From positions 1-21,513 of IMG/VR virus record IMGVR_UViG_3300008220_000094: a DNA stretch of 21,513 nt; one strand, given 5' to 3'. Made by a program: the position numbers and the translations under genes. The notes under the pieces were generated by a model. The model worked only from the letters and a program-made list of their open reading frames with translations. It was not told the DNA's origin and did no database searches. Positions 1 to 10,741 of this stretch are shown piece by piece. This stretch comes from a virus. Positions within the stretch are counted from its first letter, which is position 1, and each line of letters opens with the position of its first letter.

Positions 1-107
1 ACTGTTACCAAATTAGTGATACCAAGGTCTTCAAGTCTTTCTAATAACGCTTCACCAAGAAATCCAGCGGCACCAGTAATTAAATATCGTTTATTTTTAT
101 CAAGCAT
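1..107 (-). CDS. NAD(P)-dependent epimerase/reductase, N-terminal fragment
   Basis: Only the first 35 codons are inside the window; the gene runs off the left edge. The protein begins MLDKNKRYLITGAAGFLGEA. This is the first beta strand of an extended short-chain dehydrogenase followed by a GxxGFLG NAD(P)-binding loop. The next residues (LLERLEDLGISNLVT) look like the start of GDP-L-fucose synthase or a related sugar-nucleotide epimerase/reductase, but the fragment cannot settle the substrate. The start codon lies 4 bases after the stop of the upstream glycosyltransferase gene, so it belongs to the same operon and probably supplies an activated sugar. The Rossmann assignment is firm; the fucose-synthase idea is inference. 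Confidence 0.75.
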   Translation of the reverse strand, partial: MLDKNKRYLITGAAGFLGEALLERLEDLGITNLVT

Positions 108-111
108 ACAA

Positions 112-900
112 TTAATTTCCATATACTATGTCTATCCAGTTTTCAAAAGGCCATTCTTCTTTAAACTCACCTATCTCTTCGGGTCTATCCTGATAAATTT
201 CTTTAACTTTTTCTATATCTTCTTTTCTCATACCCTTGATATTGATTTTGTTTGGATATTGACCATCACTTACCAACTCTACCTTTTTTACACAATGTCT
301 GTTACGAGTACCTAAAATCTTGTGTCCATCGCCCTCAGCCATTTGACCACCTTGCAGTTCCCAGTCATGAGGACTCCAATTTGGTTTTAAATATTTTAAG
401 AAATATTCTCTATTCCAAATAGAAAACTGTCCTGTTATCCTATAAATGAACTGATTTGTTGATCTCTGATTTAACTCAATAATATCAAAATTATCAAACT
501 CTTTATATGTACTAACATCGTTTGGTGATCTTGCATATTGAAGTGATGGTTGCAAATCTATCCTCCCAATTTTATTGTCTTTAGCACATATCTTTAGTAA
601 CTCTTTAAATAACTCTCTATCAAAAGGTCTTACAACACAAAAATCATCAATACCAAAAATGAAATTTTCATCATCAATGCTATTAAAAAACTCGATTAAA
701 TAATTAGACCAACCTTTGGCGCCACCAACTTGTTCATCAGCCATTGAGATAAACTCAAAGTTATCTGGTAATTCAAAGTCTGGTTTGCTAAAACCAAGAA
801 TCTTAACCTCAAAATCATCGCCCCAATATTTGTTAAAAAAATGAGAAAATGCTTTAATCACAAACATATGACGATCACACGTGGGAATATAAATCTTCAT
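112..900 (-). CDS. putative glycosyltransferase
   Basis: A 262-residue protein from the chosen start, beginning MKIYIPTCDRH, typical of a nucleotide-sugar-binding first strand. Residues around 80-92 (FIFGIDDFCVVRP) give a DD-type acidic motif on a predicted strand end, the usual place for the metal-binding DxD of GT-A glycosyltransferases. The frame continues 10 codons upstream to another ATG, which would overlap the previous gene. The internal ATG, one base after that gene's stop, fits the tight packing better. No signal peptide or membrane segment is visible. Its place among other sugar genes supports a role in glycosylating a phage or host component. The exact GT family was not recognised. 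Confidence 0.6.
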   Translation of the reverse strand: MKIYIPTCDRHMFVIKAFSHFFNKYWGDDFEVKILGFSKPDFELPDNFEFISMADEQVGGAKGWSNYLIEFFNSIDDENFIFGIDDFCVVRPFDRELFKELLKICAKDNKIGRIDLQPSLQYARSPNDVSTYKEFDNFDIIELNQRSTNQFIYRITGQFSIWNREYFLKYLKPNWSPHDWELQGGQMAEGDGHKILGTRNRHCVKKVELVSDGQYPNKINIKGMRKEDIEKVKEIYQDRPEEIGEFKEEWPFENWIDIVYGN

Positions 901-901
901 T

Positions 902-1762
902 CTACCAGCCAGAACCTCTTGGACCATCAAGTGCTACAAGACGTTCTTCTTGTAAAGGTTCGATTAATGAAAATGGAAACCCTGATGGATAATAAGGATT
1001 GTTTCTGCCATGATTTATCTTCCTAATAAGTGACCAAGTTGTGTACTCCAATCCAATAAAATTGGTTTCCAGACCAACATTTTTAGAGTGCCATCTTAAT
1101 AAACCGTGATTTGAAATTTTGTGATCAATTTCTGGTCTTTCCCTTGGTGAAATTTCTGGTATAGACATCATATTTTTCTCATAGTCACTTCCTTCTGCTA
1201 GGTAGTCACCAATGTTGTCATACAGACCACCAATACTATCCATTCCTTCAGAACCAGAAATGATCCATGGATCATTATAACCAAAATTGAATTTATTGTG
1301 CCACCAATTAGAAACATACATTTTAGTACTGTCCAGTTTGTCAAATTCAATAAATGGTTCATAATACACTATATCAAATCTACTATTCAATACAAAGTCA
1401 TAGGTTTTGCCGGTTTTTTCCTCTTGCTTCTTTTTAAGTTCCACACTTTTCTGGAATGAATACCACCTACTATACATGCTTTGCAGTTTAACTTGGATAT
1501 CAGGGGTAAAACTATATTGAGTCGAACCAGTAGAAAATGGATGGTCAAATGTTATTTGGTCTTCTACTTGATAATCACAAGGTTTATACCCCTCTATTAA
1601 TTCCTTTTCAGAATCTTTGCTCCAAGTGTGAAAAAATACATCAACATCGTGATCTTTCATGACGTTTTCTTTCATACTTTCCATGCCAGATTCAAATGAC
1701 ACTGGAACACCACTGTCATTTTGACCAGACGCCAATCCGTGTAAACACAACGCTATTTTCAT
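902..1762 (-). CDS. putative glycosyltransferase (capsule/LPS-type)
   Basis: A 286-residue protein beginning MKIALCLHGLASG. The segment DVFFHTWS (residues 41-48) and the motif SRFDIVYY (about 127-134) resemble poorly characterised glycosyltransferase-like proteins of capsule clusters and marine phages, in which an R-x-D motif follows a strand as a DxD equivalent. A further segment, DPWIISGSEGMDSI (about 164-177), fits the acceptor-side half of such enzymes. The start overlaps the stop of the upstream gene by 4 bases (ATGA), indicating translational coupling. No transmembrane segment is visible. Donor and acceptor cannot be read from the sequence; another sugar-modifying function is possible. 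Confidence 0.5.
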   Translation of the reverse strand: MKIALCLHGLASGQNDSGVPVSFESGMESMKENVMKDHDVDVFFHTWSKDSEKELIEGYKPCDYQVEDQITFDHPFSTGSTQYSFTPDIQVKLQSMYSRWYSFQKSVELKKKQEEKTGKTYDFVLNSRFDIVYYEPFIEFDKLDSTKMYVSNWWHNKFNFGYNDPWIISGSEGMDSIGGLYDNIGDYLAEGSDYEKNMMSIPEISPRERPEIDHKISNHGLLRWHSKNVGLETNFIGLEYTTWSLIRKINHGRNNPYYPSGFPFSLIEPLQEERLVALDGPRGSGW

Positions 1763-3030
1763 ACTAAAGCACCTTTCATTAATTCAATGTCTTTGACATC
1801 TTTTGGTTCTGATCTCTTCTTTTTGAGATCATGGATGACCCCAATACTAGCAAATTTTACATCATCAAAATAGAAATGGTTAAAATCATTATACAAAATA
1901 TCATCCTTTCTAACAGTGTAGTTATGAATTTCTTTATTGTGTTCGTTAATTAAGTGATTTCCCTGCATAGGAACAACGTTCCCACCATAGAGGTAGTCTA
2001 AGTCCTGACCTTCCCTCATACCATACGCAGACATTACTGAACTTGCAGTGACACAAATATCATCACTATTATATTTATTTTCCTTTGTCCACTCTTTCAA
2101 CCCCTTTATCAGGTGATTATATCTCTTATAATCCTGTATTACAGCACCATTTAGATAACTTAAACTATTGTTATTAAAAAAGATTCTAGATAATCGTAAC
2201 GTTTCCTCATGAGTATCGTTAATGTGAACAGAGTGGTTGTCTATATTATATAAATCTCTAATCTTTTGTTTGACCTCTTGTACTGTATCTACACAATCAA
2301 ATTCTGCTAAAAACGCATATGTTGGACTATTTGGTGCACTTGAATAACAAAAATGTGCTTTTAAGTTGAAACCATGAAATTCGTTAGAAAAATCCCCACC
2401 CCAATTTTCACCATCATACATTTGTCTCATTAAATTTAATGGGCCCTGACCAGTTAATATTGCACCTTTTTCATGGATAACATCACCATTTTCCATCAAA
2501 ATCCTTCTCACTTCATTTATATTTTCTTTAACAGTAGCCGCAGGAAATAGAGTTACTACATACGTGTTTTCTTTCATTTTAGCATACTGTATTGCCATCG
2601 CATCACACACCCTAAAACCTAAACCTTTATCTCTGAAGAAATAAGATGTACAATCTTCTTGTCCTGCTGTGGGATCGGATGTCTCTTCATAATTTATTTG
2701 TTTATCATGAGTTAAACACGATGCTAATCTATGTGAACCATTTAGCAAATAACCATCTTTGTTCACTGGAACTGGAGCAAGTTCTGGATCATAGCCATTG
2801 TCTTTAATAGACTCGTTTATTGATCTAAATGTGTCAATATACGTTTGAAGGCTGTTTTTTTCTTGGTTATCATACTCTGTAAACCCATTCCAAACATTTA
2901 TGTGGCTTGCATAAACATTTAAACCAAAATCTGTGTCATAATCATTTTCTAGATGTTCTAAAAATAAATGTTTTGCCGCAACATCAAAACGGTTAAACTT
3001 TAATAAATTTTTGGGGTCTGTATAAGTCAT
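1759..3030 (-). CDS. ParB-like / nucleotidyltransferase-like two-domain protein of the glycan module
   Basis: A 423-residue protein of unknown function with at least two recognisable segments. Residues about 86-105 (PVPVNKDGYLLNGSHRLASC) match the ParB/sulfiredoxin-type core, where NGSHR replaces the usual GxxRxR or NGxHR element. Near the C-terminus, residues 328-347 (VTASSVMSAYGMREGQDLDY and following) resemble the GS-x-GxR-DxD core of a minimal nucleotidyltransferase fold, and the closing EPKDVKDIELMKG matches the R/K-KD-xDI-L end common in that fold. The middle part carries a conserved-looking SVHINDTHEETLRLSRIFFN segment. Both ends overlap neighbours by 4 bases (ATGA), between two glycosyltransferases, so a role in sugar transfer or activation is inferred. 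The fold assignments are by eye and no reaction is claimed. Confidence 0.5.
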   Translation of the reverse strand: MTYTDPKNLLKFNRFDVAAKHLFLEHLENDYDTDFGLNVYASHINVWNGFTEYDNQEKNSLQTYIDTFRSINESIKDNGYDPELAPVPVNKDGYLLNGSHRLASCLTHDKQINYEETSDPTAGQEDCTSYFFRDKGLGFRVCDAMAIQYAKMKENTYVVTLFPAATVKENINEVRRILMENGDVIHEKGAILTGQGPLNLMRQMYDGENWGGDFSNEFHGFNLKAHFCYSSAPNSPTYAFLAEFDCVDTVQEVKQKIRDLYNIDNHSVHINDTHEETLRLSRIFFNNNSLSYLNGAVIQDYKRYNHLIKGLKEWTKENKYNSDDICVTASSVMSAYGMREGQDLDYLYGGNVVPMQGNHLINEHNKEIHNYTVRKDDILYNDFNHFYFDDVKFASIGVIHDLKKKRSEPKDVKDIELMKGALV

Positions 3031-3686
3031 GCTCCTAGTGGATCCACAGCCTGTTCATGTTTTGTACTAACTATTCTTATTGGTGTTCTAGTTAAGTTTT
3101 CCCATTTATTAGCACTATCTCTTTCGTCTGCTTGATAAAAGTAAGGTTTGTGTGGAGCAACAACCATATGTCTTGTTTGTTGCCATGCACATCCTAAGTC
3201 AAATGGGGTATTACGTTTATAAACAAAATCTTTAGCAGTTTCAGAGATGACTTTTCTGTATTTATCTGTTAAATACAAAATAGCATGAGTAGCGAATATT
3301 TTACCTATTCTTGCAAATCCATTACCTATATCCATGGCTATATAATTACCATCACCATGAGATGTGCCTAGATAAACTGCATCTGTATCATCTGGAACTT
3401 CAATTATTGGGTTAAAATCTTCAGTAATCTTAGCATCGTCTTCTAAGATTAGTAAGGGTAATTCATTATTTTCATTATCAAGAATATCGATGTGAGATTG
3501 TGCACATCCCCTGTAATGATATATTGTTTTAGGAGTGTCTGATGGTGGTTCAACTATTCTTGCTGACAGTCTTTCATGGTTTTTAAGACCGATTTCATCA
3601 AACTGTTTAACCATTGATGCCGCATTATCTTTATCTTTATCTAGATTTACCCAACAGCATCTTACATCACGAATATCAATTTTCAT
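3027..3686 (-). CDS. glycosyltransferase family 25 (LPS-type) protein
   Basis: A 219-residue protein with the hallmarks of glycosyltransferase family 25. The N-terminal strand and loop CCWVNLDKDKDNAASMVKQF (10-29) correspond to the 'INLd.R.dR...m...l' start of that family. GCAQSH (60-65) matches the 'GExGCxxSH' motif, and LLILEDDA (78-85) is the metal-binding acidic motif. Family members transfer sugars in LPS or capsule synthesis, or onto hydroxylysine. It is the first gene of the sugar operon and lies 21 bases after the regA stop, with a weak AAAGG ribosome site. The next gene overlaps its end by 4 bases. The family call is good; the acceptor is unknown. Confidence 0.75.
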   Translation of the reverse strand: MKIDIRDVRCCWVNLDKDKDNAASMVKQFDEIGLKNHERLSARIVEPPSDTPKTIYHYRGCAQSHIDILDNENNELPLLILEDDAKITEDFNPIIEVPDDTDAVYLGTSHGDGNYIAMDIGNGFARIGKIFATHAILYLTDKYRKVISETAKDFVYKRNTPFDLGCAWQQTRHMVVAPHKPYFYQADERDSANKWENLTRTPIRIVSTKHEQAVDPLGA

Positions 3687-3707
3687 AACAAATAACCTTT
3701 TGTCTAC

Positions 3708-4112
3708 CTATTTTTTACCTATATGGTATTTTGGTATCAGTTCCCATTCAGACTTATCTTTATATGAAATTATTTTAATCTGTCCAACAGAGGCTACTGG
3801 CTCTGCAATTTTGTTTTTATCTACTACTTTTACTAGTTCCCACTCTTCTAACAAATTAATTATCGTATTTCTTCTCGCTGTATCATTTTCAGACATCTCA
3901 CTTGGTAAACCATCCAAACCAAAAAGTTCTTTAAAATGTACAATATAATATTTACCTCTCTTGTGTAAGATGTGACATGACTGGTAGAGTTTTTTTTCTT
4001 TTCTTGAAGAAACACCGATTCTGGTTAACGTTTCTTTAACCTTTAAGAAATCTTCATCATTTTCTAGTGTCACTTCAATTAAGTCTTCTGCAGTAAGTCT
4101 TCTGTCTTCCAT
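3708..4112 (-). CDS. regA: RegA translational repressor
   Basis: A 134-residue homologue of T4 RegA, the RNA-binding protein that represses translation of early mRNAs, including its own, by covering start regions. The match is close across the body: DFLKVKETLTRIGV, LYQSCHILHKRGKYYIVHFKELFG and the C-terminal WELIPKYHIGKK correspond to the T4 protein in order. It carries about 11 extra residues before the point where T4 RegA starts (MEDRRLTAEDLIEVTL). A GAGGA ribosome site ends 9 bases before the chosen ATG. As in T4 it follows gene 62, but T4 has DNA polymerase gene 43 next, whereas here the sugar operon follows. The inverted repeat in its leader is a candidate regulatory site. Confidence 0.95.
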   Translation of the reverse strand: MEDRRLTAEDLIEVTLENDEDFLKVKETLTRIGVSSRKEKKLYQSCHILHKRGKYYIVHFKELFGLDGLPSEMSENDTARRNTIINLLEEWELVKVVDKNKIAEPVASVGQIKIISYKDKSEWELIPKYHIGKK

Positions 4113-4126
4113 CCTTAAATGTCCTC

Positions 4127-4154
4127 ATAGTATAAGTTATCTCTGTGTCTTCAA
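4127..4154 (-). promoter_or_regulatory. possible sigma70-like promoter of regA
   Basis: On the minus strand TTGAAG and TACTAT are separated by 16 bases, about 15 bases before the regA start codon. The -35 is a moderate match and the -10 is imperfect, so this is a weak call. It lies in one of the few true gaps of the window (65 bases after gene 62) and overlaps an inverted repeat. Confidence 0.3.
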
Positions 4155-4159
4155 CTTAT
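4132..4159. repeat. inverted repeat in the regA leader
   Basis: ATAAGTT and AACTTAT form perfect 7-base arms around a 14-base spacer in the gap between gene 62 and regA. It could form an RNA hairpin in the regA leader or be a protein site. Because RegA controls its own translation in T4, a regulatory role is reasonable but unproven. The arms are AT-rich and no T-run follows at once, so it does not look like a terminator. Confidence 0.4.
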
Positions 4160-4177
4160 GTATAATAAAAGGACATC

Positions 4178-4561
4178 TTAGCCACCCATGTATATATCTT
4201 CCTTAATATTATTTATATCTTCTTTACTTAATAGTGCAAGTGCTTCATATGCCTTTCTGTTTGAGTATCCGAAATAGTCTTTTACTGCTTGGAGATCAGC
4301 AGGTACAACTTTTTTCATCCACTTACAAAATCTTTTTCTTTTTCTAATTGAATATTGAAGATAATCAAAATGCATTCTTTTATCAATTCCGCCCAAAAAA
4401 TTCATATTATTAGATTGAATAATCGAGTCTGGAAAATAAGACATACCCTTGTTAATAATAAAAGGTACATATTTCTTCAACACGTACTCATAATCATTAT
4501 CTAACTTGTCCATGGGAACTTTAGTATAGTTTATTGCATTAAGATAATCACTTAACTTCAT
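4178..4561 (-). CDS. 62: clamp loader small subunit gp62
   Basis: A 127-residue homologue of T4 gp62, the small subunit that with a gp44 tetramer loads the gp45 sliding clamp onto primer-template DNA. Recognisable elements are DKRMHFDYLQYSIRKRKRFCKWMKK (about 60-84), the strongest family signature, and the C-terminal DYFGYSNRKAYEALALLSKEDINNIK. It is shorter than T4 gp62 (187 residues), as in other marine T4-like phages. Its start overlaps the end of the co-chaperonin gene by 14 bases. It lies downstream of gene 44, as in T4, but separated from it by the co-chaperonin. Subunit identity rests on motif and synteny. Confidence 0.9.
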   Translation of the reverse strand: MKLSDYLNAINYTKVPMDKLDNDYEYVLKKYVPFIINKGMSYFPDSIIQSNNMNFLGGIDKRMHFDYLQYSIRKRKRFCKWMKKVVPADLQAVKDYFGYSNRKAYEALALLSKEDINNIKEDIYMGG

Positions 4562-4835
4562 CTGTTTCTACTATTGCTAAAATTGACCCCTCATGGACAA
4601 TAATAGTATTATTGTCAGCACAGGCCATGGCTCGTCTATCCCACAACACAGTATCTCCCACCTTAATATCGTTCTTAAGATCTCCACCAATGGCAGCAAC
4701 TATTACTACAACAGGTTTAGACTTATCATCTGCTGCCTTTCCAGAAACAACAATACCTGCATCTGTAACTTTTTCTTTTACTTCTTCGTGGATAATTGCT
4801 AATCTTTCACCCAATGGTCTAATAAATTTATTCAT
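4548..4835 (-). CDS. GroES-like co-chaperonin (Cpn10)
   Basis: A 95-residue protein with the full GroES layout. FIRPLGERLAI (4-14) corresponds to the 'IRPLHDRV' start, and a flexible segment at about 18-34 contains AGIVV, the hydrophobic mobile-loop tip that contacts GroEL. Then come DIKVGDTVLWDRRA (about 56-69) and the closing SILAIVETDE (84-93), matching GroES 'SDILAIVEA'. It resembles bacterial GroES more than T4 gp31, which is a functional analogue with little sequence similarity. Phage co-chaperonins redirect host GroEL to fold the major capsid protein. Here the gene overlaps gene 44 by 4 bases and gene 62 by 14, so it is made together with the clamp loader rather than with the head genes. 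Confidence 0.88.
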   Translation of the reverse strand: MNKFIRPLGERLAIIHEEVKEKVTDAGIVVSGKAADDKSKPVVVIVAAIGGDLKNDIKVGDTVLWDRRAMACADNNTIIVHEGSILAIVETDEVK

Positions 4836-5803
4836 TTAAAAGTTGACTCCATCATTAATTCTACTAAACAAGCGGTCATATTAATTTCTTGATCTGCTAC
4901 AAATGCGGATTTATATTGATATTCTGCAATTATCAAAATAGAAGCAGGGATACTTTGCGGCTCAAGATGCTCCGAAAGACTTTCATATATTTTCCTAAAA
5001 ATTTGCACTTGGTCATTATCTAAGTTATCTACTACCCAACTCCTAACTGATTGAAAATTTTTGGTACTCATTGCAGCCATTAAATCTTTGATCTTTACAT
5101 TTTCTATATCTGCAAGTATACCTACATCAATGGTGCCAGCAACAGAATATCTTTGCAGTTCGTTTATGACTCTTCTGAAGTCTGGTGTATATCTAACAAT
5201 TAATCTTGCCACAACATCTTGGTCGAATGAAATCTTTTCTTTTTCCAATATTGAACCAACCCGCTCCATAAATTGAACACACATTGATGCTGTGTCTTTT
5301 TTACTAAATTGAAAATGAATACATGTGCATCGTGAGTGGATTGGTTCAATAATTCTATTCTTAAAGTTACAAGTCAAGATAAATCTACAATTGCTTGCAA
5401 ACTCCTCGATAAAACCGCGAAGCGCCGGCTGCATGCTCTGTGCGTTTGCATAATCAAATTCGTCCAAGATCACGACTTTCTTGGAACCTGTCAATGACAC
5501 AGTGCTAGCAAAACTACGAATCCTTGTTCTCAGAGTGTCGATATTTCCGTCTTCAGAACAGTTAATCATCATCCAGTCTGTTTCAAGTTCGTTGCAAAGG
5601 GCCTTTGCGATTGTAGTTTTACCACAGCCGGCACTCCCCGATAAGAGGAGGTTTTGAGACTCGCCCGATTCAACCATATCTTTAAAAGTCTTCTTTAACC
5701 GTTTAGGAAGAATACATTCATCAATGGTTGCAGGTCGATATTTTTCAACCCATAAATATTGTTTATTTTCAATCAATGTAGTTGTCGTCAATGTAGGTGT
5801 CAT
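4832..5803 (-). CDS. 44: clamp loader large subunit gp44 (AAA+ ATPase)
   Basis: A 323-residue AAA+ ATPase, near the T4 gp44 length of 319. The order is an N-terminal WVEKYRPATIDECILP box (18-33), Walker A GSAGCGKTT (56-64), Walker B VVILDEFD (110-117), sensor 1 TCN (144-146) and the SRC arginine-finger motif (157-159). These are the RFC-box landmarks of clamp loaders. With gp62 it uses ATP to open the gp45 clamp and place it on primed DNA. Its start overlaps the DUF4406 gene stop by 4 bases and its stop overlaps the co-chaperonin start by 4, so it is translationally coupled on both sides. Confidence 0.96.
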   Translation of the reverse strand: MTPTLTTTTLIENKQYLWVEKYRPATIDECILPKRLKKTFKDMVESGESQNLLLSGSAGCGKTTIAKALCNELETDWMMINCSEDGNIDTLRTRIRSFASTVSLTGSKKVVILDEFDYANAQSMQPALRGFIEEFASNCRFILTCNFKNRIIEPIHSRCTCIHFQFSKKDTASMCVQFMERVGSILEKEKISFDQDVVARLIVRYTPDFRRVINELQRYSVAGTIDVGILADIENVKIKDLMAAMSTKNFQSVRSWVVDNLDNDQVQIFRKIYESLSEHLEPQSIPASILIIAEYQYKSAFVADQEINMTACLVELMMESTFK

Positions 5804-6204
5804 TCTAATCCAGAACCAATAATTTTATCAATTATATTTTCATATAGTATTGTAATTCCAAGAGAGCAGGAAAGATAAAACTCTGCACATGCACCTTGGC
5901 TCATCTGCCATCCTTCTAACATATAGATCGCATCACAACTATCACAAATCGCATCCAAATCACGCTTCATAATTTTTCTATTTACTTCACGATGTAATTT
6001 ATCGCGGTCTGGGTCAAATTCTTCAGGTGTGCAGTCCAACTCTTGGGTTTCTCTTGAATTAGTATCCAATGTTGCGGGGTTAATAACATCCCATCCCATT
6101 TTAACTAACATGTCTTCTGCTCTGTTAAATGCTTCATAATTCCAGTTGGGTTTGCCCCTCATTGGGCCAGCGACATAAATTGTTTTTTTTGTTTTATCCA
6201 CCAT
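5800..6204 (-). CDS. DUF4406 protein, nucleoside 2-deoxyribosyltransferase-like
   Basis: A 134-residue protein with the DUF4406 pattern. It opens with TIYVAGPMRGKPNWNYEAFN (about 8-27), followed by VINPATLD, an acidic middle, and CDAIYMLEGWQMSQGACAEF near the C-terminus. These parallel the GPM, NP and 'D.i..l.gw..S.Ga..E' motifs of nucleoside 2-deoxyribosyltransferase-like folds, in which a Glu is the usual nucleophile. A nucleotide-related role is plausible but the activity of DUF4406 is not established. The ATG used overlaps the end of gene 45 by 11 bases; another ATG 9 codons upstream would give a longer overlap. The gene separates clamp gene 45 from loader gene 44, adjacent in T4. Confidence 0.75.
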   Translation of the reverse strand: MVDKTKKTIYVAGPMRGKPNWNYEAFNRAEDMLVKMGWDVINPATLDTNSRETQELDCTPEEFDPDRDKLHREVNRKIMKRDLDAICDSCDAIYMLEGWQMSQGACAEFYLSCSLGITILYENIIDKIIGSGLE

Positions 6205-6886
6205 TGTATGTTGAATCCGGCTCCATAGCAACCCAATAACTTAAATCAATTGCTTTATTATTAAATTTTGCTACACTATTTTCACAAATCTTTACGTTAT
6301 AATCACCCGATAGCATCTTCATATTTTCAACTTTGAAATAAAAGTTAAAATCTGCATCATTTTCATTGTCACCAACCTCAAAGGTGTAACTGTTTGAAGA
6401 AGGGTCTTTCCTATCATAAACAGTTAGATTAATTTTATCCCCATTAGAAGAAATCTTTAAATCGGGTAGTTGAAGAACTCCTGCTGCCCGTTGAATTTCT
6501 TTAAAATCTTCTTCCTTGATTTCGCAGTTGACAACCGATGCTGGCATTTTTAATTCTTTATTAATTGTGGTTAGTAGTTTTGGTTCAGAATAGTAGTATA
6601 CTACCGTTGCCCCATTTTCACCTTCAATAACCATATGTTTTTCATGGAACTCAAACTTTGGTGAATCAAATAAGGATATTGTACCCAATAATTTATTGAG
6701 ATCCCAAATACCAAATCCCATTTCAAATGTCTCTTCTATTGTTGCTTGTGCCAAAACATTCTTATAGTTTGATATTGTTTTAATAGTGTTTCCAGGCTTA
6801 ACCAAGATGTTTGAGTTTATTGAGGCAAAATTCTTCAATAACTCTATGGTTTGTTTTGATATCTCTACTTTTGTTGCAGTGGTCAT
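6194..6886 (-). CDS. 45: sliding clamp gp45
   Basis: A 230-residue homologue of T4 gp45 (228 residues), the trimeric ring that tethers DNA polymerase and, with gp55 and gp33, activates late transcription. Matching stretches include ISKQTIELLKNFASINSNIL near the N-terminus, the IWDLNKLLGTISLF strand, DFNFYFKVENMKMLSGDYNVKI, and the C-terminal YWVAMEPDSTYN, parallel to T4 'YVVALEADSTHD'. A GGAG ribosome site lies 6 bases before the ATG. A good sigma70-type promoter ends about 27 bases upstream of the start codon, so gene 45 probably opens the clamp operon of gp45, DUF4406, gp44, co-chaperonin and gp62. Confidence 0.95.
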   Translation of the reverse strand: MTTATKVEISKQTIELLKNFASINSNILVKPGNTIKTISNYKNVLAQATIEETFEMGFGIWDLNKLLGTISLFDSPKFEFHEKHMVIEGENGATVVYYYSEPKLLTTINKELKMPASVVNCEIKEEDFKEIQRAAGVLQLPDLKISSNGDKINLTVYDRKDPSSNSYTFEVGDNENDADFNFYFKVENMKMLSGDYNVKICENSVAKFNNKAIDLSYWVAMEPDSTYNGG

Positions 6887-9121: not shown

Positions 9122-10741
9122 TCACGCAGGCTTTTTAAAAACAAGTATTGGCTCATATTTTAAATATTTACCGTTTACTTTACAATAATTCTTGCACATT
9201 GGTACACCATTTTCGTCCAAACGATTTTGTCCAGGCATTAATTCCATTGCCATTTTGAGTGTGTATTGATATTCCATACCAAGCGACTCTAAGATATCTC
9301 TTGAATCTTGCTCTAGAGGAAGAAATTGTTTTTTAATTAGTAAATCTGCAACATTCCACAATAAATACCTGTCCGGTTTTAAATATTCAACGCAGGTTTC
9401 TAATGTTGGTGCTAAGAATCCGTGTCGCCACGCGTCGTAGGAGTGTCCGAATTTTTTGTACGACTGAGAGGGGTCTTCGCTATATGCCTCTCTGTTGAAA
9501 TAAGGTGGTGAAGTAAAGATGAGGTCGATTTTCCCTTTGTATTCCTTTTTAAAGTCTGGATTGAGGTGGATTTCTTCTGCACACTCCTTAAAAATTCTGT
9601 AAGTGTTTGTTTCGGAAAAGACCGGATTTCCCCTATAAGTTCTGGTATTATAAAAATCAGCCAAATGCCCATATTGACCACCTGACACACCACCATGAAA
9701 ATTATCAGGGTTAGGGTCAGTCCCAACATAATGAATGCTACGATCATCCCTAACAGCCATAGCACCAAGTATGCGACCACCCCAGCCAGCAGACGGATCA
9801 TAAATATTAATAACGTCTTGATCTCGTATGTCCTCAGTAAATCTCTCATATAAGTATTTAGCAGTCATCGATGGGTAATTAACCGCAACTTGAATATAAC
9901 CAATTCTAAAAGAAGCGAAACCACGCGGAAAAATCTTTTTGTCCTTTTTATAAACACGAATATTGTACACCATATTATCAGGCATTTTATCAATGTCAAA
10001 TGTTGAATGATTGCGATAAACTAGCCAGTCTTTTTCTTTATATTCTTTAACCTGCTCTCTAGTAAGATGAAGAATATCGGATTGTTGCAGTTGATAATAG
10101 CCACTGTTTACACCTTCTCGAATTTTTGTCTGCTCAAGAATGAAATCATAGCCTTTGAAAATTTCTGGGCTGTTATGAAATGCATCCATCCATTCTTCAC
10201 CATTACTAACACTAACAACTGAATACTTATCGTCGTTGCAAAGTGCAGATTTTGCATGCTCATATAGAGAATCTCTTCTAAAATGACGCATCGATGCTTT
10301 TACCATTCTTTCTAAAAATTTGTCTTGTGCAAACAAATCATAGATTGAATGACCATCATCTTTTTCGGTATAATTGATGCGAGTCATCATCATATTACTG
10401 AACCACTGATCTGCCTCCCCACCAATTCTAGATTTATTGATAATTACGTCATCTTCAATATCAGATAACTCATCTGTATGAGTAAATTCATGAACAGGAA
10501 ACTCAGCCATTTTATTAAACTGTTTTACAATGTCTTCTTCACATTTACCAATTCTAGGCGGACAACCATATACATCCCAAGAATCTCTAACAGTCCTTCT
10601 CATTTTAATAACCCATTCTCTAAATTCATCGGGAGTCATTTCAACAAGTTCTTGATAATAACAATTCATGTGTGAATTAATTACATAGTTATTTCGTTCA
10701 TAAAATGTTTTATTCTTTTTATCTTTTGCTGTTAACGACAT
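9122..10741 (-). CDS. amino DNA methyltransferase (N6-adenine or N4-cytosine type)
   Basis: A 539-residue protein whose C-terminal part is a SAM-dependent amino-methyltransferase. Motif I is DPSAGWGGR (315-323), followed by an acidic strand end VGTDPNPDN (339-347), and motif IV is TSPPYF (410-415), with SPPY at 411-414. The order of motif I before motif IV rules out the beta-class order. SPPY is commonest among N4-cytosine and some N6-adenine enzymes, so the modified base is uncertain. About 300 residues precede motif I; no family was recognised in them, and they may hold target recognition. An AAGGAA ribosome site precedes the ATG. No restriction endonuclease gene is adjacent, so it looks like an orphan phage methylase. 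Confidence 0.85.
   Translation of the reverse strand: MSLTAKDKKNKTFYERNNYVINSHMNCYYQELVEMTPDEFREWVIKMRRTVRDSWDVYGCPPRIGKCEEDIVKQFNKMAEFPVHEFTHTDELSDIEDDVIINKSRIGGEADQWFSNMMMTRINYTEKDDGHSIYDLFAQDKFLERMVKASMRHFRRDSLYEHAKSALCNDDKYSVVSVSNGEEWMDAFHNSPEIFKGYDFILEQTKIREGVNSGYYQLQQSDILHLTREQVKEYKEKDWLVYRNHSTFDIDKMPDNMVYNIRVYKKDKKIFPRGFASFRIGYIQVAVNYPSMTAKYLYERFTEDIRDQDVINIYDPSAGWGGRILGAMAVRDDRSIHYVGTDPNPDNFHGGVSGGQYGHLADFYNTRTYRGNPVFSETNTYRIFKECAEEIHLNPDFKKEYKGKIDLIFTSPPYFNREAYSEDPSQSYKKFGHSYDAWRHGFLAPTLETCVEYLKPDRYLLWNVADLLIKKQFLPLEQDSRDILESLGMEYQYTLKMAMELMPGQNRLDENGVPMCKNYCKVNGKYLKYEPILVFKKPA

Follow-up and report, generated by a model that had tools for sequence, protein, structure and literature searches.

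The protein described here, encoded by a gene of a marine phage, is predicted to join in one chain a ParB/SerK/sulfiredoxin-type NTP-binding domain (N), a domain with an NDP-kinase (NDPK)-like fold (M), and a minimal nucleotidyltransferase-like domain (C). We give a probability of roughly 0.5 to the reading that it is a glycan enzyme which builds an activated donor, or activates its substrate in place, and works with the adjoining glycosyltransferase (GT), as sequence comparisons and predicted models suggest. We infer that a small sugar, or a substituent of one, would receive a phosphate and/or a nucleotidyl group from NTPs. The gene setting and the fusions argue for a glycan enzyme, and the three domains, whose relatives handle nucleotides or phosphate and whose active-site sets are kept, favor a transfer of phosphoryl and/or nucleotidyl groups driven by NTPs. 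The types of fold are familiar ones; neither their combination, nor the assignment of an NDPK-like domain, nor the connection with glycans seems to have been described. No paper on the three-domain combination was found in the open-access literature, which leaves a description in a subscription journal possible, and the main text of a 2025 survey of the ParB fold makes no mention of NDPK, nucleotidyltransferase, or polysaccharide fusions (PMC12704722).

Gene Organization and Overall Model

The window, that is, the whole stretch of 21,513 nucleotides analyzed, makes up the entire source record (IMG/VR IMGVR_UViG_3300008220_000094, 21.5 kb). To judge from its sequence, it is from a T4-like phage. 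Just upstream lies the gene of the RegA translational repressor (PF01818, E 1e-44), which is carried by 2,312 cultured phage records, with cyanophages closest (~66%), and after which clamp-loader and GroES-like genes follow, as assigned by PHROG matches. The coordinates and the length of 423 residues given in the original prediction stand, but the gene is read on the minus strand, and the plus strand over the same positions contains stops throughout. The motifs quoted there (VNKDGYLLNGSHR, HINDTHEET, SSVMSAYGMREGQDLDYL, and KDVKDIEL) match the 423-residue product exactly, and the 4-base ATGA overlaps can be read at both gene ends, at 3027-3030 and 1759-1762. The AlphaFold2 (AF2) model of the whole protein, built from 17 relatives, is confident over the full length (pLDDT 93, pTM 0.92). 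The features are listed in Table 1.

Table 1. Positions of the gene, its domains and motifs, and the adjoining genes in the window.
Feature	Position	Strand	Basis
Three-domain protein gene, 423 aa	1759..3030	minus (3030..1759)	ORF, AF2 model, relatives
N domain, residues 1-152, ParB/SerK/sulfiredoxin-type, predicted NTP-binding	2575..3030	minus	profile, BFVD, conservation
NGSHR (97-101), putative GxxR phosphate motif (Box II) of the ParB-CTPase fold	2728..2742	minus	conservation
M domain, residues 153-296, NDP-kinase-like	2143..2574	minus	Foldseek, hhalign
K254-xxx-R258, both invariant; R258 on NDPK Arg105	2257..2271	minus	hhalign, conservation
HINDTHEET (269-277), counterpart of NDPK HGSDxxE; H269 and D272 invariant	2200..2226	minus	hhalign, conservation
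C domain, residues 297-423, minimal nucleotidyltransferase-like	1762..2142	minus	AF2, Foldseek, PF14907 profile
S330...R339...D343-x-D345 motif (SSVMSAYGMREGQDLDYLY)	1987..2043	minus	R339, D343, D345 71/71
K410-D411...D414 motif, C terminus	1789..1803	minus	D411, D414 71/71; K410 69/71
GT25-like gene, upstream, 4-bp overlap with the three-domain gene	3027..3686	minus	phrog_24091, phrog_2835; PF01755 under cut-off
Downstream gene, cluster 12, recurs in 9 loci	902..1762	minus	phrog_13607; fold unassigned
Next gene, recurrent neighbor family cluster 4 (21 loci)	112..930	minus	fold unassigned
NAD-dependent epimerase-type gene, start only, cut by the window end	1..107	minus	sequence

A glycosyltransferase had been proposed on either side of the gene. 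The upstream gene is indeed GT25-like (phrog_2835 glucosyltransferase, E 5e-8; PF01755, E 0.0027, under its cut-off), whereas the downstream gene has no recognized GT domain, and a weak DUF7796 match is found in just three of its nine relatives. The epimerase-type gene at the window end is complete in locus L001, and the representative of its cluster matches PF01370 (E 2e-59). By its gene content, the wider cluster around the three-domain gene is clearly glycan-related. Scans of window positions 1-5000 for promoters and terminators returned no excess over chance.

Elsewhere on the minus strand, the GroES-like co-chaperonin gene (4548-4835; phrog_3188, E 3e-10) is flanked by the clamp-loader gene (4178-4561) and by the next replication gene and shares a few bases with each. 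A 143-residue protein (5800-6231) containing YVAGPMRGKPNWNYEAFN, which we take to resemble DUF4406/nucleoside deoxyribosyltransferase-type proteins, is encoded with a 4-base overlap with the gene at 4832-5803. A 539-residue protein with TSPPYF, an N4/N6 DNA methyltransferase motif, is encoded amid replication genes (9122-10741).

The ParB-Type N Domain

Conservation was scored over 72 diverse members from phages, bacteria, and plasmids, one of which is without M and C, leaving 71 for these two domains. The ParB-type core that had been proposed for the N-terminal part is supported by three kinds of comparison. G98, H100, and R101 of NGSHR (GxHR) are each kept in 69 of the 70 members having the region. 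The hhalign score against PF02195 (ParB_N) members is 24.4, above all 100 column shuffles (maximum 16.5, 0/100 reaching the score), and the alignment puts NGSHR onto the GERR box of ParB. The fold matches of the protein in BFVD (Foldseek) include ParB/sulfiredoxin proteins. In the Pfam search, the domain has no match to PF02195. It carries an additional N-terminal helical part, in which R14, D16, K20, Y40, and K58 are near-invariant.

GxxR is the phosphate motif (Box II) of the ParB-CTPase fold, through which CTP, ATP, or GTP is bound, and the fold is regarded as a versatile NTP-binding switch that is often linked to further domains (PMC12704722). SerK is a ParB-fold kinase of free serine (PMC5120207), and SbnI and Srx are likewise ParB-fold kinase/reductase enzymes and not DNA clamps (cited within PMC12704722). 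In the AF2 model, the HTH and the ParB C-terminal dimerization domain are absent, their place being taken by the NDPK-like and nucleotidyltransferase-like domains; the protein is therefore no segregation ParB. Thus, profile, model, and conservation support N as a divergent ParB/SerK-type domain with predicted NTP binding.

The NDP-Kinase-Like M Domain

The middle segment, for which the original prediction had pointed out HINDTHEET without assigning a fold, can be assigned as NDPK-like by both Foldseek and hhalign. A sequence-based NDPK proposal, which set IRDLYNIDNHSVHINDTHEET against IR..F....NxxHxxDSxExA of NDPK, preceded the fold search. In the latter, run against the PDB, 50 of the 50 listed matches are NDP kinases or NDK-domain proteins, each with a probability of 1.00, with TMt mostly 0.5-0.66 and a best E of 3.8e-4. 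The hhalign score against NDK (PF00334) is 24.4 over 109 columns, compared with a mean of 12.7 and a maximum of 21.4 for 100 column shuffles. PF01909 is the runner-up among the four families compared, with 22.1 over just 35 columns, and because this profile score is close, the assignment of M leans mainly on the fold search. There is no PF00334 match in the Pfam search.

In the profile alignment, H269 falls on the catalytic His118 of NDPK and R258 on Arg105, each of them kept in 71/71 members. The position of NDPK Lys12 (IKPD) is occupied by F162, which is Phe in 61, Trp in 6, and Tyr in 2 out of 72 members, the Arg88/Thr94 region falls into a gap, and the NxxH[GA]SD signature is replaced by one with HINDT instead of HGSDS. 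The absence of Lys12 and of the Arg88/Thr94 region makes an ordinary NDP-kinase reaction unlikely. As modeled and aligned here, M is an NDPK-like fold that keeps the catalytic histidine and that, by the full residue list, is no NDP kinase.

The Nucleotidyltransferase-Like C Domain

Modeled separately, the C domain reaches an AF2 pLDDT of 94. Against PF14907 (NTP_transf_5) members, hhalign gives 22.4 (shuffled maximum 17.0, 0/100 reaching the score) and sets DLDYL of the C domain on DIDIL of that family. The [GS]S...DxD nucleotidyltransferase motif is present, with S330 kept in 69/71 members and D343 and D345 in all. The leading Foldseek matches, headed by ANT4, H. pylori JHP933, TM1012, MNT, and CCA-adding enzymes, are nearly all of the nucleotidyltransferase fold, although weak (best E 0.36, TMq up to 0.57). 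These E-values being weak, what carries the assignment is the profile match together with the DxD and the consistent make-up of the list, and on this basis the nucleotidyltransferase-like C terminus that had been predicted is retained. Neither PF14907 nor PF01909 is matched above the Pfam cut-off. PF01909, considered as the nearest nucleotidyltransferase family, was dropped in favor of PF14907, as 4 of 100 shuffles match its score.

Conservation and Domain Co-Occurrence

Eleven residues (W210, K254, R258, H269, D272, R339, D343, D345, K403, D411, and D414) are invariant in 71/71 members, which diverge down to ~28% identity, and N, M, and C each obtain the best hhalign score with their own family out of the four compared. 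Both folds named in the original prediction are predicted, and both its NGSHR and its DLD residues are conserved, which favors the idea behind it. N, M, and C occur in a single chain in 170 of the 175 ORFs carrying M, a count of ORFs and not of independent genomes, many loci being overlapping re-fetches of the same contigs. N is absent or degraded in two loci (L041 and L042), and M stands alone in one (L043), so that the three sites are not necessarily all essential.

In the Chlamydiae member with degraded N (L041, 7053-9041), GxHR has decayed to SGNET and HINDTHEE is changed to HINDYPHQ, with H269, D272, and the DxD kept. The solitary NDPK-like domain (L043, 6744-7292), from a TM6/Dependentiae bacterium, is 182 residues long and follows a signal-peptide-like N terminus. 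Similar N-terminal stretches are present in L042, L029, and the Chlamydiae fusion L033, and some members may, in view of such starts, be exported. In turn, a Paracoccus plasmid (L325, 7899-8804) keeps the ParB-type domain and has lost the NDPK-like and nucleotidyltransferase-like ones, with a GT4 gene adjoining.

Relatives and Distribution

Among metagenomic viral contigs, a query with one protein found 25 loci; the family profile found 85, and 80 of these were retained. A bacterial genome collection yielded 17 loci, including Geomonas, Pelomonas, Clostridium, Chlamydiae, Bacteroidetes, and Fibrobacteres. Because of these matches, the ORF is not a product of chance. Three further copies, all annotated as hypothetical protein, are located on plasmids of Ilyobacter, Jannaschia, and Paracoccus (the remnant described above). 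In 50,697 cultured phages, tblastn with three different members found none. Pfam, NCBIfam, PHROGs, and the PDB sequences, searched with single proteins and with profiles, gave no significant match. Matches to PDB sequences (E >= 0.3) were too weak and were taken as chance, and a match to PF10364 (NKWYS; E 0.026, under the cut-off), obtained with a single member and not shared by others, was rejected.

When 297 genomes of the phylum that includes Geomonas were searched with the profile, Geomonas itself was the sole carrier, which indicates that the family is rare and patchy in cells. A quick tree of 69 members needs at least two changes between bacterial and viral labels, and the gene has thus probably passed at least twice between viruses and cells. 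By predicted structure, the protein apparently recurs in giant viruses as well: a Foldseek search of viral models gave near full-length matches to Klosneuvirus-type proteins (340-411 columns, E 3e-13 to 4e-14).

Glycan Gene Neighborhoods and Fusions

Both neighborhoods and fusions link the family to glycosyltransferases, as would be expected for a glycan-pathway enzyme. Phage members carry GT2 fusions at the N terminus in at least eight non-identical loci (L013, L016, L055, L058, L059, L067, L068, and L072), and the bacterial fusions comprise GT25 in Chlamydiae (L033), GT10 with GT2 (L027 and L028), and FkbM with GT2 (L030 and L035). The neighbors met most often in 68 non-redundant loci are NAD-epimerases (31 loci), GT10, GT2, GT25, methyltransferases, sugar-phosphate NTP_transferase, and DegT aminotransferases. 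The Ilyobacter, Jannaschia, and Paracoccus copies are all found within polysaccharide-type gene clusters. The first is flanked by a glycosyltransferase gene on either side, and its cluster also contains gmd, GDP-fucose synthase, and polyprenyl glycosylphosphotransferase; the second lies among GT4 and sulfotransferase genes, with a 4-base overlap with the upstream GT4.

Another family (cluster 3; L094, 4927-5706, and relatives) consists of proteins of ~260 residues without a Pfam match, with 62 genes in 22 loci and up to several copies in one phage glycan cluster.

Proposed Function and Alternatives

The recurrence of the protein beside or fused to sugar-attaching enzymes in phages, in slime or capsule clusters, and apparently in giant viruses suggests that an activated building block of surface sugars is probably made or attached. 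The nucleotide-driven step in sugar attachment that had been envisaged gains from these fusions and neighborhoods, the activity itself being a prediction. As one enzyme in a pathway of surface or virion glycans, the protein would combine a ParB/SerK-type domain, an NDPK-like domain with an invariant histidine of the phospho-acceptor type, and a minimal nucleotidyltransferase. Most likely, the first two would handle phosphate, either by phosphoryl transfer to an acceptor or via H269 as a phosphohistidine. NMP transfer by the C domain would come next and yield a building block, activated with phosphate or NDP, for attachment by the coupled glycosyltransferase. More tentatively, and rather doubtfully, we can speculate on a new class of glycan enzymes common to giant viruses, phages, and bacteria: the ParB/SerK-type site would phosphorylate a small molecule, the NDPK-derived phosphohistidine would relay the phosphate, and the nucleotidyltransferase site would nucleotidylate the molecule, creating a new activated donor for the coupled glycosyltransferase.

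The main rival, possible if rather unlikely, is a transferase with the glycan or glycosylated protein itself as its substrate, where phosphate or NMP would decorate an attached sugar with no soluble donor involved. Fusion behind GT2 or GT25 domains in one chain is what in-place decoration would lead one to expect, and ANT-like minimal nucleotidyltransferases, the top Foldseek matches of the C domain, modify sugar hydroxyls directly. However, the clusters contain donor-making genes (epimerase, NTP_transferase, and DegT), with which synthesis of a soluble donor fits equally, and two or three NTP sites exceed what such a reaction needs. That the domains are catalytically dead and merely hold glycosyltransferases together, as the aromatic residue at NDPK Lys12 and the loss of the Arg88/Thr94 region could indicate, is highly improbable, given that charged residues of the active-site type are invariant or near-invariant in all three domains of phage and bacterial members, down to ~28% identity.

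An NTP-dependent switch or sensor, in which the ParB-type domain would bind CTP or ATP and gate the fused or neighboring glycosyltransferase, with M and C as derived regulatory domains, would suit the use of the ParB-CTPase fold as a versatile switch in multidomain proteins (PMC12704722). We consider it unlikely: in addition to the missing HTH and ParB dimerization domain, there is no ParA among the annotated recurrent neighbor clusters, invariant residues are as concentrated in M and C as in N, and it is N that some members (L042 and L041) have lost, which a switch would not lead one to expect. T4-like phages have glycosylated DNA, the present cluster adjoins replication genes (regA and the clamp loader), and the methylase-like gene with TSPPYF is located in the same window; hypermodification of DNA bases in phages, with a sugar or nucleotide placed on DNA and not on surface or virion glycans, is nevertheless very unlikely, as the clusters around bacterial copies are of the polysaccharide type (with polyprenyl glycosylphosphotransferase, gmd, GDP-fucose synthase, and sulfotransferases) and phage copies are flanked by GT families of the same kinds.

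Were the protein indeed a glycan enzyme working with its adjoining glycosyltransferase, both the ParB-type NTP-binding fold and the NDPK fold would extend into glycan building, and H269, R258, R101, and D343/D345 would be concrete residues bearing on a step of surface-sugar chemistry. The protein concerned, strongly conserved yet unnamed, recurs in marine phages, in bacterial gene clusters for polysaccharides, and, it appears, in giant viruses; large phages and giant viruses may construct their own glycans in this way.

Comparison with Known Systems

Comparison of the N domain with ParB-CTPase, SerK, SbnI, and sulfiredoxin reveals shared GxHR and ParB_N profile similarity, and SerK, SbnI, and Srx likewise have neither the HTH nor the ParB dimerization domain. 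The differences are that PF02195 misses the protein, that the N-terminal helical part (R14, D16, and K20) is its own, and that the domain is fused to NDPK-like and nucleotidyltransferase-like ones. The M domain shares with NDP kinase (PF00334) the fold and the counterparts of His118, Arg105, Asp121, and Glu124 (H269, R258, D272, and E275); it departs in the replacement of Lys12 by Phe, Trp, or Tyr, in the loss of the Arg88/Thr94 region and of NxxHGSD, and in W210, K224, and K254, which are invariant or near-invariant and new in M. The C domain resembles the minimal nucleotidyltransferases of the PF14907/ANT/MNT type in S...DxD, in a PF14907 profile score above 100/100 shuffles, and in a Foldseek list led by that fold, whereas it comprises only ~128 residues, has weak Foldseek E-values, and possesses its own conserved R339 and C-terminal set K403/R406/K410/D411/D414.

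The giant-virus counterparts, from Mimivirus LCMiAC01 (A0A481Z0W0), Catovirus (A0A1V0SAX2), and Yasminevirus (A0A5K0UAL1), are matched by structure, with an identity of just 18%. Those of Catovirus and Yasminevirus are annotated as glycosyltransferases, and two of the matches sit in proteins whose length allows a glycosyltransferase fusion.

Pairs of LicA/LicC-type kinase and cytidylyltransferase make CDP-choline for lipopolysaccharide. These pairs and the enzymes of the MeOPN pathway phosphorylate a small group, nucleotidylate it, and pass it to a transferase for decoration of a glycan, much as would be the case here. The likeness is one of analogy only; their folds are different, and a single chain stands here in place of a pair.
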